From: Daphnia pulex
Taxonomy: Eukaryota; Arthropoda; Branchiopoda; Diplostraca; Daphniidae
Direction of reading: 5' to 3'
NCBI RefSeq assembly: GCF_021134715.1
Contig: NC_060018.1
Coordinates: 9,255,501-9,319,500, forward strand
Length of the DNA stretch: 64,000 bases
The translations under genes were made by a program, and so were the position numbers. This document shows positions 7,332-62,734 of the stretch, one piece after another (the stretch's first letter is position 1; every line of letters starts with the position of its first letter). The notes beneath the pieces are model-generated. The model searched no databases, had not been told where the DNA came from, and saw nothing but the letters and a program-made list of their open reading frames with translations.

Positions 7332-8832
7332 GCTAAAGTGTATGCTAGTTAAAAAATCATAAAAAATTTAAATTAATCAATTTTTACTTGAAACTTTTAC
7401 CAACGGTAGACGACATAGTCGTCTACATTTGAACAAAGTTTCAAATTTTTGTAATGATACGCTGATTTTTGCCGATATTTTATGTCAAAATGATTCGTAG
7501 CGCAATTGTTTGATTTTTCTGGTCATCGAAAACGAGGGGGGGGGGTTATTATTCTCTCTCCCAGCGAGGAAAAGAAATTGAAAGAACGAACAGAATATTT
7601 AACTTATCAGAATTTATTTAACGGATAAATATCATCACGGACAAAGAGAAAACGGTCACATTTCTCTAGAGATTGTCATTCATTTACGTGAATTACGCCA
7701 CTCTCCAAAAAGTTTGTTTTTGTTGTTACCTTCGATCCTGAAGAGAATTCAAAGAAAAAAAGAGATGGAGAGAATATGATTTACAGCTGGGCCGGAATAC
7801 AATAGAAAAAAGTCGTTCCTTGTTGATTCATTCCATCGGCGGGGGATTTCCGCCAGGCGAACCGCCCGAATGAGAATCCCAATACAAACATACGCAAGAG
7901 ACACATCACACAACGACATTTGTAGAGCCCTTCTAGCCTATTTACACGAGCGAATGACATCGTCGGCGAATTAAGCGAGGCAAATCGAAAGATGGTGTGG
8001 AAAAAAGAAAAGAACAAACAAACCAGCAATCATCATTCATCCATCGCAATCAAACTCGTTCACCTCCCAGCGATTTCACAAAAGCAAACTCGACGAATAT
8101 AAACTGTACAGGTACTCAACGACAAACAACAAACAACAGAACCCGACAAACAAGACGTAAAAAAAAAAAACCTTAAAAAATGTTTCTCACATTTTTTTCT
8201 TCTTCATCTTTGTAAAATATTTTTGTACGCGCTTTTCATCGAATATTTTGTTTGCATGTCTGTTTTCTTTGGTACTGTTTCAACTCGTCTCTCTTAAAAA
8301 TACGAAATCAAAAAATGGCATCCGCACACGCGCAGGAAGAAAAAAAAGCAACAAAACTGTCAAAGCCACACGACGAATTTTCTCTACAAGAGGCGTAAAA
8401 CCCAAAAGCGCCGCTTGTCACCAACTACAACATCCTCAAAATGATTCCCCTCCCCCACAAACAAAAAAAGGGATTCGCTTCACTCAACGATGATGAGGCG
8501 AATAAAAGACGAGGGGGAAAAAAGCCAAAAAGGCGAAAGAAAAGAAAACAGGAACTTGATTGCGAAGAAGAAAAGAAATTTTTTTAACCTAATAGATATT
8601 TGATCGATCTGCCACTCTGTGAGGAAAGATCAACAATATAAACGGCATGAAATTTTTTTTTTTTTTAGATTTTCATTTCCATTTGATGGTGTGGGTCCTA
8701 TTCTATGAGTTGATGATTTCACCCGTAATGAATAAAGGGGTTGAATGTAGAAAAATAAAATAAGGTGGGGGAACATGGAGAGGAGAGCAGGGTCTAATTT
8801 AAGAGCTTGAACACCGACAATTTTGTAAATTA
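7332..8832. other. Non-coding flank to the Gypsy insertion
   Basis: AT-rich sequence with simple A and T runs and no supported gene. It ends in GTAAATTA, whose last four bases form the left target-site duplication of the Gypsy element. Confidence 0.5.
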
Positions 8833-9115
8833 TGTGATGATGAGTCACAAGAGTCAAAACACGAGAGGTGCGGTTAAAGGTGTATTGAGAAACAACCAAG
8901 ACAACTGTAACACGATTACAAGCATAAGCTAGTGACCGTATACAACGAGACCTCAAATAGATCGAATGTCCGATTTATATACGGGATGATGAGCGATGGC
9001 TTGTCTGATGGTAGCCATGCCTGTTAAAGTAATTAAGAAGGTGCGTATGGTAAACGCATCAACAAGTGTGAGAACTTGTCAATGGCTTTGCCATATGCTG
9101 TGAATTAACATTACA
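8833..9115 (-). repeat. 3' LTR of the Gypsy element
   Basis: 283 bp, matching the copy at 22,674-22,955 almost base for base. The only differences are at the AGCTAGTGACCGTATACAACG stretch. In element orientation this is the downstream LTR, next to the polypurine tract. Confidence 0.95.
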
Positions 9116-9127
9116 CTCCTCCCCTGC
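9116..9127 (-). other. Polypurine tract of the Gypsy element
   Basis: On the - strand GCAGGGGAGGAG directly abuts the 3' LTR, the exact place and composition expected for the primer of plus-strand DNA synthesis. Confidence 0.85.
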
Positions 9128-9230
9128 TTGGAGATGTTCCAAACTGGGAAGGGGCGTGATCTTCTAACATTGGCAAAGCACAGCATCACTACATGTAAGA
9201 TTAAAAGCACAACATTGCTACATATAAGGT

Positions 9231-9285
9231 CACTAAAACAGGCAAGAATGGTAAAAATCACTAAACAGGCAAGAGTGGCAAAAAT
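9231..9285. repeat. Two-copy direct repeat in the Gypsy 3' untranslated region
   Basis: A word of about 27 bp (CACTAAA..CAGGCAAGA.TGG.AAAAAT) occurs twice in tandem with small differences, just inside the 3' LTR. Confidence 0.6.
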
Positions 9286-9342
9286 CTGCATAAAGGTAAA
9301 TGGTCAATGCTACTGGTGATTATTGTTATGTTTTCCTCCCCC

Positions 9343-9354
9343 TTTTTTTTTTTT
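9343..9354 (-). repeat. Coding-strand A12 tract after accessory ORF C
   Basis: Twelve T on the + strand, so A12 on the element's coding strand, 11 bases after the stop codon of the ORF ending at 9,366. One of five A tracts that recur after consecutive ORFs of this element. Confidence 0.8.
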
Positions 9355-9365
9355 AAAATTTGTAA

Positions 9366-9992
9366 TCAACGATCGTCTCCATATCGACGGTTGAGGCTGC
9401 GGAGAGCGGAAAAATACCGCTGTTTCAGTTCCTCCTGGTCGATGATGAATTGTTTGATTAAATTCAGTTGTTCCAGCGCAAGGGCCGGATTGTTCTCGGG
9501 CGTCGGACGAGTGTTAGTCTGGGGAGCTGCTGGGCCGGCAGGGGCGGCAGGCTGTTGCTCCGGCGTCTGGACGGTGGTGGAAACGGGTCGTGGAGCCTGC
9601 GGTCTTATGGAGGGGACCACTGCTATGACCTGTCGAGTCCTATTTTTCGAAATCGGAACCGGGGAAGGTTCATCGTCGTCGTCTGATGAATAGGGGGGAG
9701 GCGAAAATACAACGCGGTTGTATTTAATTTTAGAAGAGCGTGCTGTAGACGGCCGCTTAACGCCCCGTGTTTTCTGGTCGTCAGGAGAAGTGTACGAAGT
9801 CGATGTCCCAGGTTCCGGCTCCGGCTCGTTCGATGGAGACGGTGAAGTTTGTAAGTCATCAGACGGATAACTCCGGTATTCGGTCCTAGGAAGAGGCCAT
9901 TCAATTACTCGGCCAACTACTGGTGGCGTAGTGAGTTCCACTTCGTCGTGGATGAAGTCAGGTCCAAGAAGAAGTCGACCACGTCCGGCCAT
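9366..9992 (-). CDS. Gypsy accessory ORF C: proline/acid-rich 208-aa protein
   Basis: An uninterrupted ORF between the ankyrin-side accessory genes and the 3' LTR. The start at 9,992 begins MAGRGRLLLGPDF. The middle is Pro/Ser/Glu-rich with a short basic stretch (about residues 75-95) and an acidic SSDDDDEPS run. The C-terminus is a predicted charged helix (IIDQEELKQRYFSALRSLNR). That tail resembles the tail of the neighbouring ORF B, which has a similar string of Q, R, Y and L residues, suggesting common ancestry. No domain is recognised. Possible roles such as an RNA- or chromatin-associated accessory factor are guesses. It is followed by an A12 tract and preceded by an A17 tract. Confidence 0.75.
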   Translation of the reverse strand: MAGRGRLLLGPDFIHDEVELTTPPVVGRVIEWPLPRTEYRSYPSDDLQTSPSPSNEPEPEPGTSTSYTSPDDQKTRGVKRPSTARSSKIKYNRVVFSPPPYSSDDDDEPSPVPISKNRTRQVIAVVPSIRPQAPRPVSTTVQTPEQQPAAPAGPAAPQTNTRPTPENNPALALEQLNLIKQFIIDQEELKQRYFSALRSLNRRYGDDR

Positions 9993-10145
9993 GATGAACA
10001 GGATAAAATATGTGGTAGCGAAGTGAAGAAAGAAAAGATTTTACAGCGATATTTATAGTAGATAGTCGAAAAAGATCGCAAGAGAGAAGTTGGGGTGGTA
10101 ACTAACTTAAAGAAGGTGCAGACAAGATGAATCTATATATTTTTC

Positions 10146-10162
10146 TTTTTTTTTTTTTTTTT
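10146..10162 (-). repeat. Coding-strand A17 tract between accessory ORFs B and C
   Basis: Seventeen T on the + strand, about 60 bases after the stop of ORF B in element orientation. With the similar tracts after the other ORFs it looks like a retained poly(A) tail. Confidence 0.8.
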
Positions 10163-10222
10163 AATGACGTCAAAGTCATTAGTCACTGTCAAAGACAGTA
10201 GCTAAGTCGAAGAGTAAAGTAG

Positions 10223-10792
10223 CTAAGATGAATAAATTCTTTTTCGTGCTTGCTTCAGTTGCTGGGCCTGGGAGTAAAAACGTCGATATAGTTCACGGCT
10301 GTCGCGGTTGTATTGGTTAATGAGGTCCTTCCTGTTTTGCTGATACTCCTCCTCGCTTCGGAGAAGAATTGGGGGAGCGTACATCTGCTCAGCTTCTCCG
10401 CTGCAGTCGTTGTTGGGGAGTCCTGGTGGAAGGGGGGAAACTGCTTTTTCGTCCGAGGCGAAGTTTAGTGGTAGATCAGGGTTCGGCTCCGTCGATCCGC
10501 TATCGATTGAACTTACGTCGTCGTAGTAAAGATCGTCGCTGTGTAGTGGATCTTCGTCTTCCGGATCCGCTTCGTGAAGTGTTATTAGTGAATCTGCTTC
10601 AAGGTCGATTTGTTCTTTGTTGTTAATAAATCTCCTTTCTGTTTGAAACACTACAGTTTCGCTGCTGCTGCTAATTACTTCCGCTGGTATTTTCCTTACT
10701 CTTGCTTCTACGTCCAGGAGTACCACGGTCTTTTCTTTTCTATCAGCTACTAACGCGAACGTTCTCTTTAGCACTTTTGCGTTGGCGTCCAT
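10223..10792 (-). CDS. Gypsy accessory ORF B: acidic 189-aa protein
   Basis: Intact ORF of the Gypsy element starting MDANAKVLKRTFALVADRKE. The N-terminal third may be a small beta-rich fold (alternating hydrophobic residues, TVVLLDVEARVRKI). The middle is strongly acidic (ADPEDEDPLHSDD). The last 45 residues are a helix rich in Q, R and Y (YNRDSRELYRRFYSQAQQL) that resembles the tail of ORF C. No known domain is recognised. A24 and A13 tracts lie upstream and an A17 tract downstream. It lies in the same orientation as gag-pol-env and has no host-like introns. Confidence 0.75.
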   Translation of the reverse strand: MDANAKVLKRTFALVADRKEKTVVLLDVEARVRKIPAEVISSSSETVVFQTERRFINNKEQIDLEADSLITLHEADPEDEDPLHSDDLYYDDVSSIDSGSTEPNPDLPLNFASDEKAVSPLPPGLPNNDCSGEAEQMYAPPILLRSEEEYQQNRKDLINQYNRDSRELYRRFYSQAQQLKQARKRIYSS

Positions 10793-10890
10793 GTAAGCTG
10801 CTTGGGTAAAATCGATTCATTAGTGATGCTATGTCAAGGCAATGACTAAAAAGGCGGTAACTACGATTTATTGGCTAATTAGCATCTTTC

Positions 10891-10946
10891 TTTTTTTTTT
10901 TTTTTTTTTTTTTTAGCATTAAATGTTATTGGCTTTTTTTTTTTTT
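10891..10946 (-). repeat. Coding-strand A24 and A13 tracts after the ankyrin ORF
   Basis: Two homopolymer runs (10,891-10,914 and 10,934-10,946) 110-170 bases downstream of the ankyrin ORF stop, with AATAAA-like words just before them on the - strand (TTTATT near 11,026 and 11,057 on the + strand). Confidence 0.8.
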
Positions 10947-11057
10947 AGGTTTTTCTTTTTGTTGTTTGTAAACAACTATTAGCTGCTACTGGTGATTACT
11001 ACAACGCTTTGCTACCGTTGTATCTTTTTATTATTATTATTATTATTTTTAATTTCT

Positions 11058-12497
11058 TTATTCTAATTCGTTTAGATCGTCGTCATCTTCATTCTCGGAA
11101 GGCGTTATTTTGTTGTCGGCAATAATGTTTTTCTCGACGTCGCTGTCTGATTCGCTTGTTATCAAAGAATAGTCCCGTCGGTATCCAGGTGGTGGGGGTA
11201 GTTTTGATTTCGCTTTGTCTATTAGGCGTTTAAAATTTCGTAATTTGAGACTTGGTGCACCGTCGTCTAGGCGCGACATTTCGGTTCTTGTAGGGTAGAT
11301 GTTCTCGTTGATTTGTCGTGGCGGAATAGGGATGTGCTTAATTGGCGGTCCTTCTTCCAAGTCTGGCATATCCTCGTAGTTTCCTTTTTGGGAGGTCTCG
11401 TCCGACATTATGTTCATGGCTGCTATCGCTTTCTCGATTCTGTCAGAATTATTGTAATAAAATCTAGTGTCGAGTGTTTTATAGGCCTTTTTCCTATTTT
11501 CATGGTTGTAGAGGCGTAAATATTGATAGACGGCATTCCTGCCATCTTTTTCTGCGGCCATGATTGGAGTTTCGTGGTTACGATTTCCAAGTTCCAGGCG
11601 GGCTCCGTGAGAAATCAATACCCTTAACGTAGGTATATCATTCACGAAGTGCGCGGGCGTGTTTCCGTTATTGTCCTGTAGATTTACGTGTGCTCCGTGG
11701 TATAGTAGGATGTCGGCAATTTCATGGCGGTTTTTTTCCACTGCTAGATGGATATAAGAAAGAGATTTATGCACTTTTGTGTTGACAATGTGCTGGAATC
11801 TGTCTAGCTCTACTAGAGCCCTTATGGTTTCGATGTCGTTTCTTCTTATAGCCACTGAAATGGGGCAGCTGAATTTTCTGTTGATTAGAAATGACTCGAC
11901 TTTTGGGTTTTGGCTGAGGATGTAATCGATACAATTCCTAGCCTGATGGCTTATTGCCAAAGTCAAAGGAAATTCCTGATTAACCAGATCGTGCTCTAAA
12001 AGGTTTTTCTTGTAAATATGGACGAACCGTATACTATTTACGTCATCCCGTGAGATGAGTATTTCTGTGATTGTTCTAGCCAATCGATCTCCGCTGTAGA
12101 TTGTGGCGCCCTTGTAGATCAAGTCTTCAATCATGTTAATTCGGTGTAATCGTACCGCGGTCACTAACGCCGTTTCATTCTTTGAGTTACTTTTTTCGAC
12201 GTCTGCATCGTGTTCTAGGAGAATCTTGAAACATTTGTACGAATTATGTTTGATAGCTACCAGAAGAGGCGTTTTTTGTCGATAGCTGTTCTCAATGTCC
12301 TCTGGGTGTCGCGTAAGCCAATACTTCAGCTCGGTGTGACTGTCCATCAAAACCAGTTCGTGAATCTTCGGGGTGGTTTTTTCAATTCCATGTTTCCGGT
12401 TGGGAGGAAAAGCATTTCTCCTACTCATGTGGGTAGTGCTAAAGGTCCAAATCCGTTGACGTTCCGAGGGGGTCGTTGCAAAATCCTCTTGGTTCAT
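11058..12497 (-). CDS. Gypsy accessory ORF A: ankyrin-repeat protein, 479 aa
   Basis: An intact single-exon ORF inside the retroelement, between env and the small ORFs. Residues about 45-350 form roughly eight ankyrin-like repeats, recognisable from TPLLVAIKHNSYKCFKILLE, FPLTLAISHQARNCIDYIL, IHLAVEKNRHEIADILLYHG and NGNTPAHFVNDIPTLRVLI. Each is a helix-turn-helix with the usual TPL/HLA and LL..GA positions. The C-terminal 120 residues are disordered, with proline patches (KLPPPPGY) and an acidic end (ENEDDDDLNELE). Ankyrin proteins bind other proteins; cellular and viral examples often act on immune signalling or ubiquitin ligases, but no F-box or SOCS motif is visible here. Retroelements do not normally encode such a protein, so capture from a host or viral gene is the likely origin. 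Confidence 0.88.
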   Translation of the reverse strand: MNQEDFATTPSERQRIWTFSTTHMSRRNAFPPNRKHGIEKTTPKIHELVLMDSHTELKYWLTRHPEDIENSYRQKTPLLVAIKHNSYKCFKILLEHDADVEKSNSKNETALVTAVRLHRINMIEDLIYKGATIYSGDRLARTITEILISRDDVNSIRFVHIYKKNLLEHDLVNQEFPLTLAISHQARNCIDYILSQNPKVESFLINRKFSCPISVAIRRNDIETIRALVELDRFQHIVNTKVHKSLSYIHLAVEKNRHEIADILLYHGAHVNLQDNNGNTPAHFVNDIPTLRVLISHGARLELGNRNHETPIMAAEKDGRNAVYQYLRLYNHENRKKAYKTLDTRFYYNNSDRIEKAIAAMNIMSDETSQKGNYEDMPDLEEGPPIKHIPIPPRQINENIYPTRTEMSRLDDGAPSLKLRNFKRLIDKAKSKLPPPPGYRRDYSLITSESDSDVEKNIIADNKITPSENEDDDDLNELE

Positions 12498-12549
12498 TTT
12501 TTTCTTTTCTTTTCTATGATGATATGGTTTTTTGGATATTAGACGGTGG

Positions 12550-12562
12550 TTTTTTTTTTTTT
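12550..12562 (-). repeat. Coding-strand A13 tract after env
   Basis: A13 on the - strand, 80 bases after the env stop and about 50 bases before the ankyrin ORF start. Same arrangement as after the accessory ORFs. Confidence 0.8.
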
Positions 12563-12642
12563 AACATATTTTTGTATATAGTTATTCAAAGCATTTCTAC
12601 TCTACTCCATGCGGCGATAAGTATGTTGTCAATTGTCAGCAG

Positions 12643-15600
12643 TTACAGATGAATTTGATTAAGGAAACTATTTGCTCGGCTTATTGATTCGATAGGCGCA
12701 CTTGGTGGCATAACATATGGATACATATTTCCTGGCATTATAACTGGATGGTTTGTGGCATATGCCATGTGATGACTCTGCTCTATTGGTATTTCTACTG
12801 CTGCGCGGCGATTTCGGCGTTGTTGAAACGAATCTATCATGGCTGGTATAGGGTTGACTCGTGCAAAAATATACGCGACTAGGATAAACATTATAAATCC
12901 TATCGTAGTAAAAACGATAATTTTTAGATAATCTGTCCAAGAGTACATGTCTCCAATTTTCGTATCCTGTTTCTCTGACATTATCATTCCAGCTAACGAA
13001 TTGTCGTGCGTTTCCTCTATCCTACCTATCAATTCGTTTAAAACATTGAGTCGTTCTAAGTCTGTTACTGAATGAGCTGGGTGTCCTTTTAAAGCGTAGT
13101 TAAAATCGTTAAGGGAGAGCTCTTCAAACTGCGATACAAGATTTAAATTTGGTGTGTGTATATTCGGCGTTTGCTCCGTCCAATCGGCGTGGGTTGTATT
13201 GTGTTCCCAGTGAAATGTTTTTCCGTTTAGATTGACAAGGTTTGTTTTCCAAAAACAATTGGAAAATGGGTGGATTGACCATCCATCTGTTCCAATTGTA
13301 TAGTTGTTATTTTTGTAAACCGTGTATGGCTGGAATCCACATTTCGTTTCTATTGCTCCGACTGTAACTTGTTTCTTCTCGCATTCCTGTAGAAGTAAAG
13401 ATTGTCCGAGTCCTTGAAGTCGTGAACAAGTTGGTAATTCCAATGCTGCTGCGGCTAGAATTCCATTTGTTTGAGACAGTGTCATGGCTTGCAATCTTCT
13501 CAGCACAGACACCTGGCAGTATATTTGTCGTATCTCTCTTGCCAGCTCATTTTCGTGTTGAATCTCGATGCTCTGCTTATATTGCTCGTGGAAGGATTGG
13601 ATAATGGGTTTGATGATCTCGCTGATTTCTTCTTTGTTTGCTGTTGTTGGTTTATTTTGTGTGGTGTTTTTGCTTTTGTCGGTTGAGTCGTTCAGGTAAG
13701 GTAATGTGGCTTTTGTTGGTATAGGTATAGTTTTGGAATCGTTCTGGTGAGGTATGATGGTTCTGGTGGGATGAGGTAAGGGTAAGGGTTGTTTTGTAAC
13801 TTTTTGGTTGGGACTTGTTGTTTTTGTTTGGGGTGGAGTGTTGCTTTGTGTAGAATTACGTGGGCGTGGTACAGGTGGTTTTGTTGGTTCGGTTAAAGGT
13901 ATGGGTTTTGAAGTTGAAGTTGTCGTCGATGTCGTTGTTGTTGTGGTTGTTGTTGTAGTTGTTGTTGTTGATGTCACTTTTGGTGCAGGTTTTGTCGGTG
14001 CAGGTACTGGAGGATCTGTAGGTCTTGTTGGGTTCATTGTTGGCGGGTTGCTTGAATTATTATTGATTCCTGCATCTGGTCTCGCTATTTCGCCTGCGAA
14101 AACTGTTGTTAGATTTTTCTGTTGATTATTCCCTAGATTTTGTTGTTTGATTTGTGACGCTGCTGCAACTTTAGTTTCATTTATGATCGGTGTTTCTACG
14201 GCTTTTATTTCGAATATTTCAGGGTACTCTTCTTTGTTGGTCTCTTTTGTTGTATCTGGAACTGGCGTTGTTTCTTCTTTGTTGGTCTCTGTCGTTGTGT
14301 CTGGAACTGGCGTTGTATCTGGTATCGTTTTATCTTCAATGAGGCTCATGTTATTTCGATTCTGGAAGATTGGCGGCATCGTCGGGAATGGCATATCATG
14401 AATGGAAAAGTTTTTATGCCACTCGAGAATCCTGGAAGGTATTAAGCTGGGATGCTCTTCGGAATTTATTAGATTAGGGTTGTATGCTTCGAATTTCCAT
14501 TTCTGATGTCTGGGTTTCTGGTCATCGTTGCATAATCCTAATCTTAACTTTCCTTGGTGAAATTCAATGCATTTGATTGAGTTCACATCCATTAATTGTC
14601 CAGTTATCTCGTTGGCTCCCCATCTCATACTATCTGGGTTGCATTGCTCGAGAACTGCGTTCTTTTCGTTTATTCTTAAACAATGATTGGTGTCGAACTT
14701 CCTGATGGTATAGTCGATGTCGTATTCAAACAGCTGATCTGGAAACTGCATCGGGTCTCCTGGTGATTGACATGGCTCCATAGAGATGTTTAATTTTCCT
14801 TGTATATTGTTCATACACATCGGCGTTTTTCCATTTTTGTTTTTGTTCATAAGTTGTCCCCAATTAAATATATGGTCTATATTTAATAGGTTTTCCGCAG
14901 GGCTGCTTCTGAATTCTTCGTGGACGAATTCCCATTCTTCTATTGTGATGTTTGGATATGCTTGACGTAGGTTGTAGTCCGTATTACGTTGATCAAATCT
15001 CCACATCTGCTTGATTGAATGGGGCTCCATTTCACAAGGTTCAAGTGACACCTGGTCCTTGACTGCTGTAAGACATCCTTTCGATTGTGTTTCCATGATG
15101 TACATTCGGTAGTCATCATAAATCCAAGTCGAGTGGGGAATCGAGCAATCTTTGAAGAGCAGGTGGTTTGGGTTGTTTACTGTCAGACAGTAACTGGTTC
15201 CATTTGTTGTAAAACGAATTGAATAGTCCGTGGAAAATTCGAAAAGCTGCTGTGTTTTCGGCCAAATTCCTAGCTCGCTCCATGTAGTTTTGTTGATCGG
15301 AACTCGAGGCATCAGGAACAGATGATTTTCGATGTCGGAAGTTGTTACCACGTATCTTTTGTCTTCATATTTCTCGTCGAACTCGGTGGGTGGAAATGAT
15401 GCAAGGGGATTGAGGTGTCCCCATGCAAACACGTGGCTATTTTCGTTGTTAATTTGTTTAAGCTGTCTTGTGTGTCGAGTTTTTGATGTTGGGTTTGTTA
15501 AGAAGAATTTTTCGATCTCGTCTTCAAAAACTATGTGGGTATCCGGTATGCCAATTATTTTGTAAGAATTAGACATACCGGCGCAAAGGTTGACTTTTTC

Positions 15601-16380
15601 GGGACCAAATAAAATTTCAACTTGTTTTTCGGTATCTAATATTCTACCTGTCTTTATCTGTTTTAATCTTGGGTTTCTGTCTATTTTAATGAGAGATATT
15701 TTACCTGTTCCCTTAAATTGTTTCTTTTCTTGACATTTTACCTCGACTGCTGTAGGAACGTTTGGTATGCGCCACACAATAGTATTGTGGTTAACGATAA
15801 GGTGTTCGTTTTTCAACGATACGTTATGCGATCCAAATGGTGATAGAAGTGGTCCATCGGTGGACTCTTGTCTAATCTCAATGTCTTGGGCTAAACAATT
15901 CACTACTGAATATTCTTTTATTGACATCCATTTTCCTTCACCTACTGGTTTTTGTCTATAACTATATGTTTTGCCGTTAACTATATTCTTATTTCCTGCG
16001 CAGTTTAATAGCGATTTCATTTCCCAACATTCTTGGGGACTGACTTCTTTCGTCGTGTGAAAATGCTCCGTGTCATATGATCCTGCCCAAAATGATCCTG
16101 TGATCTTTTTCGTTTCTATCCATTGCGAGCATACGAGTCCTTCTACTCGCAGGTCTGTTTGTATTTTAGTAGCCACATAATAGGTAACTAATTTGCTCAT
16201 AACTTTCTGTTCATCCTCTTTATCAGTGTGATTTTTGAAACAATAATCTGGGTCTGTAAGGTCAAGCAGACCTCTCGTGACTGGTTTTGAGCAGTCGCAA
16301 ATTTGTATATTAAGCGTCAAAATAGGCGTAAAGACAATCGACAAGTAGCATGCTGTGATAAGAACAGCGTTGTTTCCCAT
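12643..16380 (-). CDS. env: Envelope-like glycoprotein of the Gypsy element, 1,245 aa
   Basis: A type I membrane glycoprotein expected to mediate membrane binding and fusion if particles form. Residues 1-23 are a hydrophobic signal peptide, followed by a Cys-rich N-terminus (CDCSKP, LLDLTDPDYC) of the type seen in rhabdo/chuvirus-like arthropod glycoproteins; that affinity is tentative. A basic RHTR site near residue 303 could be cleaved by a furin-like protease. Residues about 380-640 contain repeats with QMW and QKW motifs and paired Cys (GCLTAV..LEPC; CLRI..LEQC) typical of ricin-type beta-trefoil lectin modules. A Thr/Pro-rich mucin-like stalk lies around 700-900, with a long Thr run near 810. 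A single transmembrane helix is at about 1,150-1,173, then a short tail. There are many N-glycosylation sites. It starts 42 bases after pol ends and has no internal stop. At this length it is about twice a classical errantivirus Env. Confidence 0.9.
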   Translation of the reverse strand: MGNNAVLITACYLSIVFTPILTLNIQICDCSKPVTRGLLDLTDPDYCFKNHTDKEDEQKVMSKLVTYYVATKIQTDLRVEGLVCSQWIETKKITGSFWAGSYDTEHFHTTKEVSPQECWEMKSLLNCAGNKNIVNGKTYSYRQKPVGEGKWMSIKEYSVVNCLAQDIEIRQESTDGPLLSPFGSHNVSLKNEHLIVNHNTIVWRIPNVPTAVEVKCQEKKQFKGTGKISLIKIDRNPRLKQIKTGRILDTEKQVEILFGPEKVNLCAGMSNSYKIIGIPDTHIVFEDEIEKFFLTNPTSKTRHTRQLKQINNENSHVFAWGHLNPLASFPPTEFDEKYEDKRYVVTTSDIENHLFLMPRVPINKTTWSELGIWPKTQQLFEFSTDYSIRFTTNGTSYCLTVNNPNHLLFKDCSIPHSTWIYDDYRMYIMETQSKGCLTAVKDQVSLEPCEMEPHSIKQMWRFDQRNTDYNLRQAYPNITIEEWEFVHEEFRSSPAENLLNIDHIFNWGQLMNKNKNGKTPMCMNNIQGKLNISMEPCQSPGDPMQFPDQLFEYDIDYTIRKFDTNHCLRINEKNAVLEQCNPDSMRWGANEITGQLMDVNSIKCIEFHQGKLRLGLCNDDQKPRHQKWKFEAYNPNLINSEEHPSLIPSRILEWHKNFSIHDMPFPTMPPIFQNRNNMSLIEDKTIPDTTPVPDTTTETNKEETTPVPDTTKETNKEEYPEIFEIKAVETPIINETKVAAASQIKQQNLGNNQQKNLTTVFAGEIARPDAGINNNSSNPPTMNPTRPTDPPVPAPTKPAPKVTSTTTTTTTTTTTTTSTTTSTSKPIPLTEPTKPPVPRPRNSTQSNTPPQTKTTSPNQKVTKQPLPLPHPTRTIIPHQNDSKTIPIPTKATLPYLNDSTDKSKNTTQNKPTTANKEEISEIIKPIIQSFHEQYKQSIEIQHENELAREIRQIYCQVSVLRRLQAMTLSQTNGILAAAALELPTCSRLQGLGQSLLLQECEKKQVTVGAIETKCGFQPYTVYKNNNYTIGTDGWSIHPFSNCFWKTNLVNLNGKTFHWEHNTTHADWTEQTPNIHTPNLNLVSQFEELSLNDFNYALKGHPAHSVTDLERLNVLNELIGRIEETHDNSLAGMIMSEKQDTKIGDMYSWTDYLKIIVFTTIGFIMFILVAYIFARVNPIPAMIDSFQQRRNRRAAVEIPIEQSHHMAYATNHPVIMPGNMYPYVMPPSAPIESISRANSFLNQIHL

Positions 16381-16421
16381 CTAATTTGGAAAAACAAAAT
16401 ACGATTACTGTTTGTTAAGCT

Positions 16422-19400
16422 TTAATTTCTATTTCTAAGTGGATATCTATGTGACACACGTATTTGTGTCGGTGGAATTACGGGGTTGTTATTAGGTAAT
16501 TCCTGATCTGTAACTCTTGGTTGGTTTGGGGGTCTACCTCCACGTTTTGGTTGTGGGGGAATTACAACCCCTGTTATCTTCGGAGGTCTACCTCTTCTTT
16601 TTGTCGCTGTTACGACTTCTTTTACTTTTGGAGGCCTACCTCTTTTCTTTCCTACTTTAGTTTGTATCTTTTTAATGGTTTTACGTCTTTTCTTAATAAT
16701 TATTGGGTTAGGGCTAGTTATATTATTGGGAGTGCTGGTCACTAATTTTAACCTATTTACATGTACTATATATTTCCCTTCGTCCTCAGTGTTATTTATT
16801 TCATCTGTTATTTTGATAATTTCATAGTTAAGGTCCGATATTTTTCTATTTATTTTATACGGTCCTAACCATCTATTATTAAATTTTCCTGGGGTAGAAT
16901 GGGCTTTTAAGAGTACGTGATCGTTTACGTTATACTTAACTAATTTACTACCTTTGTCATATAGTCGTTTTTGCTTTGATTGAACTTTCTCTAATCGTTC
17001 TTTCGAACGTTTTAGAGCTCTTTTCCATTGTTTATCGTATTCATCTGCATCATCTTCAAAAACGTCTATATCGTCATTGATAGAAATATCGCTTGGCACT
17101 ACTGCTTCGCGTTTAAAAAATAGATAGAAAGGGCAACAGTCTGTACTAGTTTGCTTTGCAGTGTTATATGCGAAAGTTACAAAGTCGAGATATTTATCCC
17201 ATGACTCTGGTTCATCGTTCACATAACATGCGAGCATATCGCACAGAGTCCTGTTGAATCTTTCCACTAGTCCATCCGTCTGCGGGTGGTAACTTGTAGT
17301 TTTAATTTGCTTAATTTTAAAAAGAATGCATATTTTTGAAATGAGTTTTGAAAGAAAATTAGTTCCCTTATCTGTCAATACTCTTGCTGGAGGACCGAAT
17401 TTTGTATAGACTTTTTTTACTAAATGTTCTGCTATCGTATGCGCTTTCTGGTCTTTCATTGGTATGGTCATTACATATCTACTTGCGTAATCAGACAAAA
17501 CTAAAATATATTTGTTTCCTTCACTACTTTCCGTAACCGGCCCTACTATGTCCATTGCGACTTGTTCCCAAATGTTTGCTACTAAAGGCAATGGCTTAAG
17601 TGGGGCTTTAGTCGACCCATAGGCCTTACGTTTTGCACATGCAATACAATTGTTTACATATTCAGTAACGTCTTTGCCTAGTCCGGGCCAAACGAATTGG
17701 CGTTTTACTCTCGCTAGCGTCTTTGCTATCCCTAAATGCCCTGCTAAAATATGATCATGATTCAATTCTAAAATTTCATTAATTTTCTCTTTTGGCACAA
17801 CTATTTTTCCTTCGTTTGTTATTAAAATGCCTTCATTATTGAAACGGAATTCATTATATTCTTTCTTATTGCTTTCTTCTAGTTTCTGTATTATTTCTTT
17901 ACAATAATTATCATTTCTCTGTGCTAATATTATATCATTTTGAACCTTTTCTTCTTTTACTAATATTATCGATCCTATTGATGGTAATGGAGTCCTACTT
18001 AATGCATCGGCATTTTGATTTTCCTGGCCAGGACGATGTAGGACTATCATATCGTATGATTGCATTTCATACGACCAACGAGCTAATCTGCCATGCGGAT
18101 CTTTTTTCTTCATTAATGTCTCCAATGGTTTGTGATCTGTGTATACTTTAAAACTTCTTCCGTATAAGTATGGTCTAAACTGCTCTAATGCATAAACAAT
18201 CGCTAAACATTCTTTTTCTGATACATTCCAATTTCGTTCTCTTTCGTTTAAATGTCTTGACGTATAAGCTATAACTACTTCCTGTTCTCCGTGGGCCTGT
18301 GTTGGATCTGATTCTGAGGGGGGTATGTTCTGTATCTGTGCTAACACGGCTCCAATCCCGTATCCTGAGGCATCTGTGTATACCAAGAATTCCCGGGTGA
18401 AATCGGGATACCTTAAGAGTGGATTGTTGGTTAGCGAATTCTTGATACGTCGAAAGGCGTCCCTTTCGTTTTCTTCCCAAATCCAAGTCGATGACTTCTT
18501 TGTCAGTTCTGTTAAATAATGCGCTATCTCTGCGTAACTTCGAACGAATTTTCGATAATAATTAACTAATCCTAAAAACGAGAGTAGTTGCTTTACGTTT
18601 TGTGGTTCGGGGTAGTTTAGAATTGATGTAATTTTCTTATTGTCTGGATGAAAACCATTTACTGTAATCACGTGACCTAAGTATTTAATTTTTGTTTTGA
18701 AAAAATCGCACTTACTTAATTTTAATTTTAATCCTTCATTTGCCAGAAGCTTAAAAATAATTTTCAAATGTTTTATGTGGTCATCAAGCGTTTTACTGAA
18801 AACGATGATGTCGTCAAGGTAAACAAGTGTAAATTCGTACAGCACGTCCTTTAATACATTGTTCATTTCTCTTTGGAATGTGCCTGGTGCGTTGCACAAA
18901 CCAAATGGCATACAGTTAAATTCATACAAGCCATACTCACAAATAAAAGCTGTTTTATATTTATGTTTTTCTTCGATCTCGATTTGCCAGTATCCACTGA
19001 GCAAATCCAGAGTCGAGAAATACCTGGCACCGTGTAGACTATCAATAATTAGCTGAATGTTTGGTATGGGGTACCTGTCTTTTATGGTTACACTGTTTAA
19101 CTCACGATAATCCACGCAAAATCTCATCTGTCCTTCTTCTTTTTTAGCTACTAAAAGAATAGGTGATGCAAAAGGGCTTGTACTGGGCCTAATTATATTA
19201 TGTTTTAACATGTCTTCTATTTGTTTTTTTACAACAAGTCGTAGCCTTTCAGGCGTTCTCCTCATAGGCATAACGTTCGGAAGCTTGGTTGTACGTATAA
19301 GGTGCTTGACTGATTTTGCTTTTCCTAGCTCATTTAAATTCTCAGTAAAAAGCGAAAAATTTGAAATTAAAAGGTTCTTTAAATTTTCCCTGTGTGTTGT

Positions 19401-19985
19401 TGGTATGCCTTCTAAATTAAATTGGGGTGGATCAACTATGCTAATTGAGTTAATCTGTAATGGCGGTATTATAAGTTTCTTTAACTCGTTGTCTTGTTTA
19501 TAGCTAATCGATCGTTCGCTAGGATTTATTATTATTTCGTTAGTTGCCAAGAAATCGTAACCTAAAATACATCCTTCTTCTAACTCTGACATTACATAAA
19601 ATGGATGTTTAAACGAGTGTCTACGAGCTAGTCTAATATTTAGCTCGTAGCATCCTCGTGGTTTGACTAACTCTCCTGATACTGTTCTAAAAAGCTGTGT
19701 GCTATCGTTGGCGGTATTTATTTCTTTAACTTCTCCATAGGGTACATTTATAAGTAGTCGATGTGCAAGGAAACTAGCTGAGGCACCTGTATCTACTAAA
19801 GCTTGTGTCTTTAGACCAGAAAAACTCACAGGTATACGCATTAACTGCGTAACGCTACATATTACGGGTATATTTATATTTACAACACTGTTATTCGATA
19901 AACCTACTGCTGTTCTGTTGACGGGGGCGGGGGCACGCTGCGACATTCTCGCGCGTAGTGGCCTCGCTTTCCACAAGCATAACAC
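16422..19985 (-). CDS. pol: Gypsy Pol polyprotein: PR-RT-RNase H-IN, with C-terminal AT-hooks
   Basis: Replicates and integrates the element. Domains in order: aspartic protease (LVDTGAS near residue 63), reverse transcriptase with YLDD near 392, RNase H (YTDASGYGIG near 538; YTDHKPLE near 610), integrase zinc-binding HHCC (HDHILAGHLG ... CIAC, about 735-785), DDE core (MDIVGP, LTDKGTNF, LVERFNR, about 810-930) and a GPY/F module (RWLGPYKI near 1,035). The last 90 residues carry three tandem AT-hook-like motifs (KKRGRPPK, KRRGRPPK, KRGGRPP), which bind the minor groove of AT-rich DNA and may guide integration. Pol overlaps gag by 82 bases in the -1 frame, so Gag-Pol is probably made by frameshifting. 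No premature stop is seen. Confidence 0.95.
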   Translation of the reverse strand: MLCLWKARPLRARMSQRAPAPVNRTAVGLSNNSVVNINIPVICSVTQLMRIPVSFSGLKTQALVDTGASASFLAHRLLINVPYGEVKEINTANDSTQLFRTVSGELVKPRGCYELNIRLARRHSFKHPFYVMSELEEGCILGYDFLATNEIIINPSERSISYKQDNELKKLIIPPLQINSISIVDPPQFNLEGIPTTHRENLKNLLISNFSLFTENLNELGKAKSVKHLIRTTKLPNVMPMRRTPERLRLVVKKQIEDMLKHNIIRPSTSPFASPILLVAKKEEGQMRFCVDYRELNSVTIKDRYPIPNIQLIIDSLHGARYFSTLDLLSGYWQIEIEEKHKYKTAFICEYGLYEFNCMPFGLCNAPGTFQREMNNVLKDVLYEFTLVYLDDIIVFSKTLDDHIKHLKIIFKLLANEGLKLKLSKCDFFKTKIKYLGHVITVNGFHPDNKKITSILNYPEPQNVKQLLSFLGLVNYYRKFVRSYAEIAHYLTELTKKSSTWIWEENERDAFRRIKNSLTNNPLLRYPDFTREFLVYTDASGYGIGAVLAQIQNIPPSESDPTQAHGEQEVVIAYTSRHLNERERNWNVSEKECLAIVYALEQFRPYLYGRSFKVYTDHKPLETLMKKKDPHGRLARWSYEMQSYDMIVLHRPGQENQNADALSRTPLPSIGSIILVKEEKVQNDIILAQRNDNYCKEIIQKLEESNKKEYNEFRFNNEGILITNEGKIVVPKEKINEILELNHDHILAGHLGIAKTLARVKRQFVWPGLGKDVTEYVNNCIACAKRKAYGSTKAPLKPLPLVANIWEQVAMDIVGPVTESSEGNKYILVLSDYASRYVMTIPMKDQKAHTIAEHLVKKVYTKFGPPARVLTDKGTNFLSKLISKICILFKIKQIKTTSYHPQTDGLVERFNRTLCDMLACYVNDEPESWDKYLDFVTFAYNTAKQTSTDCCPFYLFFKREAVVPSDISINDDIDVFEDDADEYDKQWKRALKRSKERLEKVQSKQKRLYDKGSKLVKYNVNDHVLLKAHSTPGKFNNRWLGPYKINRKISDLNYEIIKITDEINNTEDEGKYIVHVNRLKLVTSTPNNITSPNPIIIKKRRKTIKKIQTKVGKKRGRPPKVKEVVTATKRRGRPPKITGVVIPPQPKRGGRPPNQPRVTDQELPNNNPVIPPTQIRVSHRYPLRNRN

Positions 19986-22492
19986 TCTATATGTCTCTTA
20001 TTTCTAAATCCTTGGGCTGGGTTATACCAAGCGTTATGCTGTGGCCTAGCTCCAGGGGGACCTGAGGTAACGAAGTTATTCTGGCGCGGTACCTGATGGG
20101 CACGAAACGTTTGGTTTCGAAAATGCTGGGGATATTCACTTAAATTCTGAAATCTACGACGAGGATTAAACATAGGATTAAAATTTTGGGGACGCTGAAA
20201 TTGTCCTTGTGATCTGTTTGAATAATTTTGTGGTGGTGGAGTTGGCTCTCTTCTCGGACGGTTATCTAGTGTATCATTATATCTGTTACCACTAGAACTA
20301 CGTGATCTATGGTGTTGATTATTCGTACCTCTAGATCGAGGAATATTTCTATCCGCGCTGTGTTGGCGGCTTAGGGGGTGCTGAAAACGGATCCGATTTT
20401 CCGAATTGGACCGTCTACGATCGCCGGAAGGTGATCTGTGTCTGTTAAAGGCGTCGGCAACTGCTATTGAGGGAAAATCAATCTCGTTGTTTTCCTGTGG
20501 AGCATTTTTTCCGATAGTTAGACCGGCTAACTGTTTCTCTAAATGAACAATCTTTGTTTTCTGCCGCAAGATCTCTATATCTTGCTCGTTATCGTGTGCA
20601 GAGATACCTGCTATAGTGGCCTTTAAACTCTTATCTTCATTCTGTTCCATTCTATTAACTAAAGTTTCCGCGGCGTAGGCGTTTTCGCATACGTCTTCGT
20701 AAGCACTATCAACATCCATGCGGCTCCAAACTATTTTCAATATTTTTGGCAAGAGACCCTTTAAAAGAATTTTTTGTTTGGCTTCGCCTCTCATTTGACT
20801 CAGAGATATTGCTAATGCCTTAGCTTCGTTCGTCGCTTTGTCACCTAATGTAATTTCTTTTCCGTGGATGATGTCATATAACTGATTAATTCTACTAACG
20901 AAAGTTTGTGTGCTTTGATCGGGGGTCTGCCGAAGCTCGTTTAATTGTTTTCTTAAATTTTCTAACTCTGTTTCTGTAAGAAATCTATTTATTAAAGCTT
21001 TTTCCCATGCATCGTAATCTTCCTCATCTTGTGCTCTTTCCATATAATCACTATGCCAATCCGCAGCATCTCCTCTTAGTCTATCTGAAAAATATTTTAT
21101 TTTATCTTTCTTCTCCCACCCTGCGCTTTGTGCGACTCTTTCCGCATCTTTTAACCAATTATTAACTAACTGCTCTCCTCTTTTGCCTTTAAAAATCGGA
21201 ATAGATTTCCGTTCGTCCTGTGAATATAATTCACGTAAATGGCTCTTAGTTATTGGTGCATCTTCATTACTATTGCCTAACGTCATGGTTATAATATTAG
21301 TTGTTTGAGTGGGCTTTGAATGGGTTTGCGTATCTGCTACTAAAGTCGATTTCAAATGTTTTTGAATGTATAAATCTTTAGCTTTAATTTCTTGTTCGAG
21401 GTCAGAGATTTTATTGGATAAGTCTCGTTTGGTTGTTTTCAAAATTTTTACGCTTGCGTCTTTGGAGTTGGCTTCAATTTGCAAGGTGTCTAGCTTCTGA
21501 GATAGTTCTTGGTTTTTATTTGTAAGTGTTGTTACGTCGTCTTCTGTTAATTTACTTGCGTTCTTCAAAGCTTCGTGTGCGTTGTCTAATAGATTGTAGC
21601 TATGGTTTAGTTGTTTTATTTTATCTTCAGTGTCTTCCTTAAGTTGTGATAGAGAATCCCTTAAATCATTTATGCAGTCGTTCTGTCCTATGATTTCGCT
21701 CTTAGCTTTTTCTAGATCGGTTTTAGCTGTCTCATATTCTGTCAAAAATGTTTTACTCTCATCGCTTGCCTGACTTTCTTTGGGTCTATTATTAAAATCT
21801 GCTATTAAAGTTGCTTGTTTAAAATTTGTTCGGGTTAATGTTTCTACTTCTGCTGTTAAACGGGTGTTTTCTAGATAAGAATCGGCTACTTTCTTTGAAA
21901 ATTCTCTCCTTACTTTATCTACCTCTTTTTCAGTCTTTTTCGTTTCGTTCGCTACGTCTTGTTCAAGATTCTTTGCATACTCATCTAATGCTAATTGTTT
22001 GAAAAGAAGTTCCCTCTTAAATATTTTAAATGCTTTATTCCGAAAATCTACTTCTCGACTATGAGCTTCTCTAACATTTTGTAACAAAGGGTTAAATTTA
22101 TTGGGGTCTGCTTTTAATTCTACGAAATATGTCCCTAATTTTTCTAAAACTTTTTCTTTAGCCTCACCGGTAAGATAGACTGAACTTCCAAACTCCTTCT
22201 TATGCAATTCAAATGTATACTGTTTCAAAAAATGATAAACTTGACCTGTGACTTCCTTTCTTTTTGCAATATAACTACTTCGTGTTAAGCGTTTATCTGA
22301 GGTTTCATCTATATTACTTTTACAAAGACTTATTAAATTTGACCAATGGGTAACAAAATTGTTTCTAACTTTTAGTACACTATCAGCTAAGGAATTTACG
22401 TACGCGTCTTCTTCTAGGTCTATCTCATCAATTAAAGACTCATTAATAGCTGTAAACGAAGTGTCGCTAATTGTTGTTTGAGGATTCGTCAT
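19904..22492 (-). CDS. gag: Gypsy Gag, 862 aa, with long coiled coil and zinc knuckle
   Basis: Structural protein of the particle. The N-terminal half (about residues 150-400) is a long charged coiled coil (repeated E/K/L heptads such as LTEYETAKTDLEKAKSEI), which is unusual for a Gypsy Gag. A retrotransposon capsid region follows at about 420-620 (IPIFKGKRGEQLVNNWLKDA, then WEKALINRFL). The C-terminus is Arg/Gln/Asn-rich and ends with a CCHC zinc knuckle, CYACGKRGHYARECR, that binds RNA. The start at 22,492 is the first ATG after the PBS and leader. The 862-residue length is about twice that of common Gypsy Gags, mainly because of the coiled coil. Confidence 0.93.
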   Translation of the reverse strand: MTNPQTTISDTSFTAINESLIDEIDLEEDAYVNSLADSVLKVRNNFVTHWSNLISLCKSNIDETSDKRLTRSSYIAKRKEVTGQVYHFLKQYTFELHKKEFGSSVYLTGEAKEKVLEKLGTYFVELKADPNKFNPLLQNVREAHSREVDFRNKAFKIFKRELLFKQLALDEYAKNLEQDVANETKKTEKEVDKVRREFSKKVADSYLENTRLTAEVETLTRTNFKQATLIADFNNRPKESQASDESKTFLTEYETAKTDLEKAKSEIIGQNDCINDLRDSLSQLKEDTEDKIKQLNHSYNLLDNAHEALKNASKLTEDDVTTLTNKNQELSQKLDTLQIEANSKDASVKILKTTKRDLSNKISDLEQEIKAKDLYIQKHLKSTLVADTQTHSKPTQTTNIITMTLGNSNEDAPITKSHLRELYSQDERKSIPIFKGKRGEQLVNNWLKDAERVAQSAGWEKKDKIKYFSDRLRGDAADWHSDYMERAQDEEDYDAWEKALINRFLTETELENLRKQLNELRQTPDQSTQTFVSRINQLYDIIHGKEITLGDKATNEAKALAISLSQMRGEAKQKILLKGLLPKILKIVWSRMDVDSAYEDVCENAYAAETLVNRMEQNEDKSLKATIAGISAHDNEQDIEILRQKTKIVHLEKQLAGLTIGKNAPQENNEIDFPSIAVADAFNRHRSPSGDRRRSNSENRIRFQHPLSRQHSADRNIPRSRGTNNQHHRSRSSSGNRYNDTLDNRPRREPTPPPQNYSNRSQGQFQRPQNFNPMFNPRRRFQNLSEYPQHFRNQTFRAHQVPRQNNFVTSGPPGARPQHNAWYNPAQGFRNKRHIECYACGKRGHYARECRSVPPPPSTEQQ

Positions 22493-22655
22493 TCACTTAC
22501 AGTTTTGAGAAAATTGATGTTTCCTTCCTCGATGTAGATGATCTCGTTGTGGGTTGTCTGGTCGTCTGGTCGTCCTGTCGTCTGGTCCTAGGTGGTGGGG
22601 CAGCTGGGGGGCGATGTTCCTTCTCGTTGACTCACGGCAGGTTTTGAAGTCCAAA

Positions 22656-22670
22656 CTGGCACGTTCACCA
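22656..22670 (-). other. Primer-binding site of the Gypsy element
   Basis: On the - strand TGGTGAACGTGCCAG begins three bases after the 5' LTR. TGG complements a tRNA 3' CCA end, as expected for first-strand priming. I cannot name the tRNA with confidence. Confidence 0.7.
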
Positions 22671-22673
22671 ATT

Positions 22674-22955
22674 TGTGATGATGAGTCACAAGAGTCAAAA
22701 CACGAGAGGTGCGGTTAAAGGTGTATTGAGAAACAACCAAGACAACTGTAACACGATTACAAGCATAAGCGAGTGACCGTACAATCGAGACCTCAAATAG
22801 ATCGAATGTCCGATTTATATACGGGATGATGAGCGATGGCTTGTCTGATGGTAGCCATGCCTGTTAAAGTAATTAAGAAGGTGCGTATGGTAAACGCATC
22901 AACAAGTGTGAGAACTTGTCAATGGCTTTGCCATATGCTGTGAATTAACATTACA
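22674..22955 (-). repeat. 5' LTR of the Gypsy element
   Basis: 282 bp, near-identical to 8,833-9,115. In element orientation it is the upstream, promoter-bearing LTR. It is followed by ATTA, the right-hand target-site duplication. Confidence 0.95.
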
Positions 22956-22959
22956 ATTA

Positions 22960-24606: not shown

Positions 24607-24775
24607 CTGCAGTATTGAGAGGGATCTATGCACTATTCAAGATGGCGAGAGAGAGAAACGATGAAACGAGCTGGTTAAGGATTTCCTTTGCACAACTGCC
24701 AATGTCAGGCGATAAGCGGGCCACATCAAGAGAGATTAAAAGGAAGAGTTCACTTACCATTACTTACACTTACAC
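24607..24775 (-). other. Intron sequence before the membrane-anchor exons
   Basis: Lies between the CTGCAG acceptor at 24,607 and the SZT2 exon copy. No coding signal. Confidence 0.4.
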
Positions 24776-24945
24776 AGCTTACCGTTGTATGGTTTTGAAG
24801 GGCCAGCACTGTTTGGCCAAAACCAGCTAAAACATACTCCGTCGTGACTTCGTCACTGTCCGAGTTGGTCGAAGAAGCCATCCTGAAAACGTGGAACCCG
24901 TAACGGCGCTCGTGAATCAACAGTTTATTGAACAGCTGTTCACCC
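24776..24945 (-). pseudogene. Duplicated SZT2 exon fragment fused to Copia
   Basis: About 170 bp closely match the SZT2-like exon at 34,639-34,809, including its GTAAGC splice donor. Identity ends right after the donor on one side and at CACCC on the other. A 13-bp excess (around GGTTTTGGCC) shifts the frame inside the copy. At its upstream edge the Copia frame (QYVGTKDQL) runs directly and in frame into SZT2 residues (GEQLFN). It therefore forms a Copia-SZT2 junction and could, by its donor, splice to the betaglycan-like exons. Probably a product of retroelement-associated rearrangement. Confidence 0.85.
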
Positions 24946-25110
24946 AGCTGATCCTTTGTTCCTACATACTGTAGATCAATTACTCCATTATTGAGTGTTT
25001 CTGTTACAAAATGATACTTTATGTCAATGGGCTTCGTTCTTTGATGGAACTCAGGATTCTTAACTAAGCGGATGGCGCTCTGGTTATCACAAAGTAGGAG
25101 AATGGGTGGA
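24946..25110 (-). pseudogene. Copia RNase H, C-terminal part
   Basis: - strand frame with the conserved LLCDNQSAIRLVKNPEFHQR and KYHFVTE motifs of Copia RNase H. It continues the frame interrupted at 28,511; removing the LINE and one copy of GTGGA restores the reading EVEPPPILLLC. Confidence 0.85.
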
Positions 25111-62714: not shown

Positions 62715-62734
62715 CTGTTGGCAAACAAGAAGTA

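Follow-up and report, generated by a model that had tools for sequence, protein, structure and literature searches.

Structure of the provirus and its copies

The window analyzed here is a stretch of 64,000 nucleotides from Daphnia pulex (assembly GCF_021134715.1, contig NC_060018.1, positions 9,255,501 to 9,319,500), and it carries a Ty3/Gypsy (Metaviridae) provirus in which three additional open reading frames (ORFs) follow the env gene. A preliminary description of this DNA had placed a 14.1-kb element at window positions 8833..22955. These ends proved to be exact, and we can add that the genes are read on the minus strand. The structural features are listed below in the direction of reading (TSD, target-site duplication; LTR, long terminal repeat; PBS, primer-binding site; PPT, polypurine tract).

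22955-8833, minus strand: provirus, 14,123 bp
22956..22959: TSD TAAT on the 5' side, read from the sequence
22674..22955, minus strand: 5' LTR, 282 bp, TGTAATG...CATCACA
22658..22670, minus strand: PBS 5'-TGGTGAACGTGCC-3', complementary to the 3' end of tRNA-Arg(ACG)
19904..22492, minus strand: gag, 862 amino acids, with Pfam Retrotrans_gag and a CCHC zinc knuckle
16422..19946, minus strand: pol, 1174 amino acids, with protease, reverse transcriptase, RNase H and integrase (Pfam)
12643..16380, minus strand: env, 1245 amino acids, with hydrophobic N-terminus, two Ricin_B_lectin stretches and Ser/Thr-rich linker
14485..15426, minus strand: two ricin-type lectin domains and spacer, about residues 319-632 of env
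13616..14615, minus strand: Ser/Thr-rich linker of env together with the adjoining end of the lectin region, where the window and copy C5 differ most
11058..12497, minus strand: ank, 479 amino acids, with Pfam ankyrin repeats
10223..10792, minus strand: ORF5, 189 amino acids, with conserved N- and C-terminal segments and an acidic variable middle
9366..9992, minus strand: ORF6, 208 amino acids, starting MAGRGRLLL, with conserved N-terminal and C-terminal segments
9116..9128, minus strand: PPT AGCAGGGGAGGAG (counterpart in sister family A2, GGAAGGGGGAGGAG)
8833..9115, minus strand: 3' LTR, 283 bp, TGTAATG at its start and CATCACA at its end
8829..8832: TSD TAAT on the 3' side, read from the sequence

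The observation of an env-bearing Gypsy element with three extra ORFs was thus confirmed, and the structural claims of the preliminary description (near-identical LTRs, a 4-bp target duplication, PBS, PPT, and open gag, pol and env with three further ORFs in the same orientation) were all borne out. Across 281 aligned bases, the LTRs are separated by one substitution and two gap events, TAAT flanks both ends, the PPT lies directly inside the 3' LTR, and Pfam domains were found among the six ORFs in gag, pol, env and ank. When the genome (133 Mb, 13 contigs) was searched with a tRNA-shaped pattern for the primer, we obtained 109 matches (100 places listed) compared with none for a reversed control, and ARAGORN called tRNA-Arg(acg) in all three loci run, out of eight loci taken from the genome. 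About 100 listed matches to the 3' part of tRNA-Arg(ACG) lie at C2, ~11.56-11.65 Mb (L060-L066), with a spacing of mostly ~525 bp.

A genome search with the 3' LTR yielded 18 matches, which correspond to 12 LTRs of six paired insertions, one solo LTR (TSD CATT) and five diverged or partial sequences. The preliminary description had proposed a search for other full-length copies, and five further paired-LTR insertions (C5, C8a, C8b, C8c and C9) form family A1 together with the window element; each is flanked by its own 4-bp TSD (CTAA, CAAC, GAAG, GTCA and TTGG). The paired LTRs of all six copies end in TG...CA, and the 4-bp duplication falls within the 4-6 bp of Ty3/Gypsy elements; the tRNA primer site likewise agrees with this group. 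The LTR pairs of C5 (0/283), C8a (0/283) and C9 (0/281) are identical, those of C8b differ at 4/281 sites plus one gap and those of C8c at 16/282 plus one gap. All three accessory frames are open in three of the six copies (window, C5, C9). In C9, the six genes were matched unbroken apart from a junction between two sequence pieces. Ank is interrupted in both C8a and C8b, together with ORF6 in the former and with the start of ORF5 in the latter, and C8c shows heavy decay. Apart from such junctions, env is uninterrupted in the window, C9 and C8a, and interrupted in C5, C8b and C8c. At L038/L039 (C8:5767968-5781488), one A1 copy is inserted in the ank gene of another (TSD GTCA). The idea that other copies lack the ORFs at 9.3-12.5 kb, or carry them only in broken form, did not hold, with C5 and C9 open.

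The 5' LTR of the window element has a short tract of the C9 type and its 3' LTR matches that of C5 exactly, and this mixture of types is apparently due to conversion or recombination between copies. Because the LTR difference consists of a tract of C9 versus C5 variants, LTR divergence is no clean clock for the window element. The earlier view of a recent, apparently intact copy agrees with the open frames and near-identical LTRs.

From the coordinates, pol overlaps gag in frame -1 relative to gag, and the overlap contains no canonical -1 slippery heptamer. The Pfam order in pol (protease 39-134, reverse transcriptase 268-427, RNase H 490-631, integrase 717-888) is that of Ty3/Gypsy elements, the protease model scoring below or near its cut-off. 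A phage search with pol gave no match.

Env and the accessory genes

It can be seen from the Pfam-A scan that Ricin_B_lectin (PF00652) was the sole family at E<=1 in Env, with two stretches, the better one at residues 376-460; the F-type envelope of errantiviruses was not among the matches. Inspection by eye of the hydrophobic segments and of the cleavage site suggested a basic cleavage-like site near residue 305 and a transmembrane (TM)-like helix in the C-terminal part. The basic site recurs, also by eye, in A2 Env and in the relatives P0073, P0075 and P0076. The outer limits of the lectin region are approximate, as they were taken from the strands of a low-confidence model. Between the window and C5, we counted 28 mismatches in the 1000 bases at 13616..14615 and none in each adjoining 500. 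Searches of PDB sequences were unhelpful: one profile gave no hit and one a single chance hit, and the hits of a third search were weak (ten in all, best E=0.034), with lectins or GalNAc-transferases named in six cases. A relation of the window Env to chuvirus glycoproteins would be no more than conjecture.

In lineage B, which is described below, the shorter env gene is homologous to that of the A families (hhalign E=2.6e-17 for the C-terminal part; both ends matched by tblastn), with 26-28% protein identity in two end segments. No lectin match was obtained in the two B Env proteins scanned, so that in A the two lectin domains and the Ser/Thr linker sit between Env segments common to B. Lectin gain in A appears to be a simpler reading than loss in B. 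At the Pfam cut-off, no envelope family was found in the two B Env proteins or P0075; the nearest match below it was of one B Env to CoV_S2_C (11 residues, E=0.086).

The ank protein consists of an ankyrin solenoid (about residues 40-335) and a low-confidence tail that carries a conserved P-x-x-K-x-R motif. Its model is mostly confident across the solenoid, with block means of the predicted local distance difference test (pLDDT) of 59-94 across residues 41-340. The fold matches were generic, comprising cellular and viral ankyrin proteins at 11-22% identity among the matches listed (50 per search). Poxvirus and giant-virus proteins at the top of these matches were set aside, as a generic solenoid names neither partner nor origin. 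ORF5 and ORF6 contain no Pfam family at the cut-off, and PPPY is present in ORF6 of the window and C9. Their C-terminal helices look similar by eye, and a profile comparison gave a probability of only 0.6%, so that paralogy is not claimed. Both have short conserved ends and a charged, variable middle, which suggests adaptor or regulatory proteins.

Genome matches at E<=0.001 numbered 42 for ank, 30 for ORF5 and 25 for ORF6, the weaker ank matches resembling ordinary ankyrin proteins. We also queried a set of 5.8 billion proteins with env, ank and ORF6. Here, the organism-named relatives of env and ORF6 were all from D. pulex, and ank found, besides D. pulex records, generic ankyrin proteins from other organisms; the ORF6 relatives (best 7996 candidates scored) added no function. 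Among viral contigs there was no relative of ank alone or of B Env, and the one match to the ank profile (31% over ~70 residues) was taken as generic.

Two sister families retain much of this gene set. Family A2 was found at three places (C10, C7, C10b) and is identical to the window element to ~75% in pol, 55-58% in env, 46% in ank and 43-46% in ORF5. One A2 copy measures 14,151 bp, has LTRs that differ at 1/357 sites, TSD ATCT and the primer site of the window element. Its gene order ends env-ank-ORF5, and no ORF6 match was found in the ~370 bp from ORF5 to the 3' LTR. In A3 (C12), env has a stop in each matched part, and ank and ORF5 are 53% and 40% identical. Here (L021, C12:2812500-2821500), we observed a second ORF5-like stretch with 74% DNA identity to the first. 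Overall, the families share 39-55% identity in ank and ORF5, and the two genes keep the same order in A1, A2 and A3. ORF6, by comparison, is missing from A2.

Differences between families fall mostly at third codon positions in ank, ORF5, ORF6 and env. This bias was pronounced for ank (A1-A2, p=5e-16), ORF5 (A1-A2, p=2e-6) and ORF6 (A1-B1, p=4e-5) and weakest for ORF6 A1-B2 (p=0.03). The ratio of nonsynonymous to synonymous change (dN/dS), which the preliminary description had expected to lie below 1, was 0.34 when pooled over six near pairs of accessory ORFs (77 differences, p=3e-6; 35.5 synonymous per 1200 sites, 41.5 nonsynonymous per 4097 sites). These pairs were chosen as near and with frames open on both sides; near pairs left out of the pool include three with higher ratios (0.61, 1.40, 1.65) and several in the range 0.07-0.49. 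Codon bias, pooled dN/dS and the retained order and frame indicate that the accessory ORFs are most likely functional genes.

Probable ORF6 exchange and candidate expression signals

ORF6-like genes were also found in lineage B elements at eight places, of which L023-L026 were assigned to B1 and L028-L030 to B2; L027 is decayed. Seven of the eight show the order pol, orfTM (~220 amino acids, TM-like end), ORF6, env, so that ORF6 precedes env, unlike in A1. B env is open across 568-573 amino acids in L024, L026 and L029; L023 is partly masked, and the remaining ones are shorter or interrupted. Where matched as one piece (L029, L030), B pol is 36-37% identical to the window pol. One segment of the window element is far closer to B2:

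9694..10163, minus strand: exchange block, ~170 bp upstream of ORF6 and its first ~99 codons

Its DNA is 83-84% identical to three B2 loci (83.8% over 475 bp), and in the comparison with B1, ~109 bp at the start were matched. ORF6 proteins of A1 and B2 are 54% identical overall and 75-76% in the first 102 residues; the second half of A1 ORF6 shows likeness to B1 instead. B1 and B2 are 79% identical in env and only 34% in ORF6. ORF6 and its upstream region appear to have been exchanged, since the A1-B2 block is 84% identical in DNA with polymerases at ~36%, and since B1 and B2 share so little in ORF6. Most simply, the transfer would have run from a B-type element to A1, as A2 is without ORF6. 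L031 is a decayed B-type remnant with a B2-like orfTM, followed by a frame-broken ORF6 that is 84% identical to A1 in both halves. Upstream of ORF6, 16/143 noncoding sites differ, compared with 21/77 synonymous sites in the adjoining ORF6 (p=0.004), and this better conservation suggests that the upstream part may have a function of its own.

The following candidate expression signals were recognized:

22495..22500, minus strand: GTAAGT resembling a splice donor, 2 nt upstream of the gag start codon
16381..16401, minus strand: TATTTTGTTTTTCCAAATTAG, a tract resembling a splice acceptor, immediately upstream of the env start codon
~12513..12516, minus strand: TAG resembling a splice acceptor, 16 nt upstream of the ank start codon
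10798..10800, minus strand: CAG resembling a splice acceptor, 5 nt upstream of the ORF5 start codon
10050..10057, minus strand: TATAAATA, candidate for an internal promoter, 65 nt upstream of the ORF6 start codon

GTAAGT occurs three times on the sense strand of the element. The sequence GTAAGTGAATGACG, which spans the donor-like site and the gag start, is kept in the five A1 copies (C8c is not among them) and two A2 copies shown, and the A1 and A2 leaders differ apart from it. The env start is directly preceded by AAATTAG in A1 and by TTTCCAG in A2 (...ACTTTCCAG followed by ATGG). The nearest YAG lies 2-17 nt before the ank and ORF5 starts and 3 nt before B env. For ten downstream starts (env of A1, A2, B1 and B2; ank of A1-A3; ORF5 of A1-A3), we found a YAG at most 6 nt upstream in eight cases, compared with 47/187 internal ATGs in A1 (p=4e-4) and 51/214 in A2 pieces (p=3e-4), the rows being non-independent. 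For A2 ank, the second in-frame ATG, which aligns with the other families, was taken as start. The count leaves out env A2b (without upstream bases), gag, three rows of ORF6 and two of orfTM (at 7 and 45 nt, the former placed 3 nt off). Before ORF6, the nearest YAG is 109 nt away in A1, 68 nt in B2 and 136 nt in B1. TATAAATA is kept in the A1 copies shown and lies 63 nt before the ORF6 ATG in B2.

Elsewhere in the window, we noted pieces of a non-LTR retrotransposon at 24750-28159 on the minus strand (adjoining ORFs for endonuclease, 27017-28159, and reverse transcriptase, 25982-27016) and fragments with sub-cut-off RVT_2 (copia-like) and RVT_1 matches at 28626-29204 (minus) and 63227-63889 (plus). 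A cadherin-domain match at 62335-62745 (minus) was the sole above-cut-off non-transposon family among 20 other ORFs scanned, and 53476-54008 is a tandem repeat (148-bp unit, 3.6 copies).

Interpretation and comparison with known systems

The window element is a real, conserved and unusual variant of an env-bearing Gypsy provirus. We interpret it, with a probability of roughly 0.72, as a young, apparently intact Ty3/Gypsy provirus with a complex-retrovirus layout, spliced accessory genes and an exchangeable ORF6. According to this model, full-length RNA would be translated into Gag and Pol, and the donor 2 nt before the gag ATG would be joined to acceptors at or near the start codons to give env, ank and ORF5 RNAs. 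For ORF6, the template may be a longer spliced RNA or a transcript started at a TATA-type internal promoter of its own; together with its upstream region, ORF6 would travel between lineages as a cassette. Env would be cut at the basic site, bind glycans by its two lectin domains and mediate cell-to-cell transfer. Viral ankyrin proteins generally bind host proteins, and from this behavior a host-binding role is inferred for ank; its most likely partner would be a protein of an immune, cell-death or ubiquitin pathway. ORF5 and ORF6 are most likely small regulatory adaptors.

Several observations speak against this interpretation. The label env relies on position, N-terminal hydrophobicity, the TM-like helix and the cleavage-like site; no fusion-protein family reached the cut-off, and the AlphaFold model of Env (residues 1-1200, 8 sequences) was unusable, with a mean pLDDT of 35.8. 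The dN/dS ratio was 1.65 for ORF6 window-C8b and 1.40 for C9-C8b (C8b is decaying), 0.67 for ank C10a-C7 and 0.61 for ORF6 B1_C10-B1_C9, and synonymous sites are saturated in most between-family comparisons, which makes the corresponding ratios unreliable. The chance of no nearby YAG before ORF6 in all three lineages is 0.10-0.15. B1 ORF6 has no TATA pattern, and of the 13 other starts with upstream bases, four (ank A2, ORF5 A3, both orfTM rows) show such a pattern 12-75 nt upstream, which weakens the internal-promoter reading. Finally, the families and lineages named here were reached by genome matches to the LTR, ank, ORF5 and ORF6 and form no census.

An alternative is that the three downstream ORFs are passenger host DNA caught between the LTRs, which is open merely because the copy is young. 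The generic fold matches of ank and the youth of several A1 copies, judged by LTR identity, would fit. However, A2 and A3 retain ank and ORF5 in unchanged order, at 39-55% identity and with codon bias, and lineage B has ORF6 too, at a different gene position. The sister families have already largely refuted this explanation, and we consider it very improbable. If the accessory genes are real, they might still be translated by reinitiation or from an internal ribosome entry site on one polycistronic RNA of full-length or env type, with neither splicing nor an internal promoter. A-rich tracts before ank, ORF5 and ORF6 are compatible with this, and the accessory sORFs of the MDG1 group are expressed from transcripts without evidence of splicing (PMC11952523). 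Such a mode is, in our opinion, unlikely, as diverged families keep GTAAGT before gag and have a YAG next to most starts of env, ank and ORF5.

With a similarly low probability, the 1245-residue protein might be another secreted or membrane lectin protein rather than a fusion envelope, and the element would then be non-infectious. The lectin domains are its sole recognized part, and neither Pfam at the cut-off nor the PDB sequence searches provided an envelope or fusion family. Its position, the single C-terminal TM-like helix and the basic cleavage-like site shared with A2 and the three relatives argue for an envelope, and both of its ends are homologous to the shorter ORF downstream of pol in lineage B. 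Extending the preferred interpretation, we tentatively envisage, as a possibility below even odds, that Metaviridae of this crustacean evolved a complex-retrovirus organization independently. It would comprise spliced env, ank and ORF5, an internally promoted ORF6 cassette traded between lineages whose polymerases are about one third identical, and an Env armed by insertion of two ricin-type domains into an older glycoprotein.

Insect endogenous retroviruses or errantiviruses (gypsy, ZAM) have a Ty3/Gypsy pol and an env after pol that is expressed from spliced RNA (PMC12992720). The window element shares pol type and env position, with candidate splice sites only. Errantiviruses carry an F-type env (PMC12992720), in contrast to the lectin-domain env without F-type match, the 14-kb length and the three further genes found here. 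Burro elements of planarians are giant and Gypsy-like, with an env-like region and ankyrin repeats among their captured domains, and there ankyrin, BIR and BCL2-like domains and env lie in one giant ORF1 polyprotein (PMC6431247). Unlike Burro, the window element has six separate ORFs, with ank as a gene of its own after env and two more behind it. LTR elements of bdelloid rotifers have captured an ORF3 (GDSL, DEDDy, paramyxovirus-like env), and extra ORFs are common to distant retroelement lineages (PMC5408684); the ORF types differ from ours, and the abstract of that report names neither ankyrin nor a lectin-env. The sORF1 and sORF2 of the MDG1 group are likewise small accessory proteins of Gypsy elements, but they lie upstream of gag in elements without env (PMC11952523), and here they lie downstream of a full env. 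Anakin elements, in which an LTR element captured a chuvirus glycoprotein, belong to BEL-Pao (PMC7642597), unlike the Gypsy element described here. In foamy viruses, a TATA-type internal promoter (TATAAAA) towards the 3' end of env serves the genes after env (PMC6669660). Accessory genes between env and 3' LTR are common to both, the internal promoter here being a candidate only; foamy viruses belong to the Retroviridae, and we see a likeness in the way of working without claiming kinship. By that measure, the window element agrees with complex retroviruses in its conserved accessory genes beyond gag, pol and env.

A survey of D. pulex LTR elements reported gypsy elements of 4,026-12,862 bp, and the word ankyrin is absent from its main text (PMC2996953). 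In the literature searched, we found no description of the window element or of a lectin-bearing env combined with an ankyrin accessory gene. The proposal that its complex accessory region is unusual and perhaps undescribed thus survives as to this element, but other invertebrate LTR elements were already known to carry additional ORFs, including ankyrin repeats (PMC6431247, PMC5408684, PMC11952523).

The lectin insertion in Env resembles a captured binding module. Complex retroviruses of vertebrates are well known for accessory genes and internal promoters, and the present element hints that complex retrovirus-like gene sets may arise in invertebrates too. As the accessory genes are open in young copies of a laboratory model, one can test whether the step from LTR element to infectious virus is always accompanied by the evolution of such genes. 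The Daphnia lineage would also allow testing which host pathways are targeted and how modules move between retroelement lineages.

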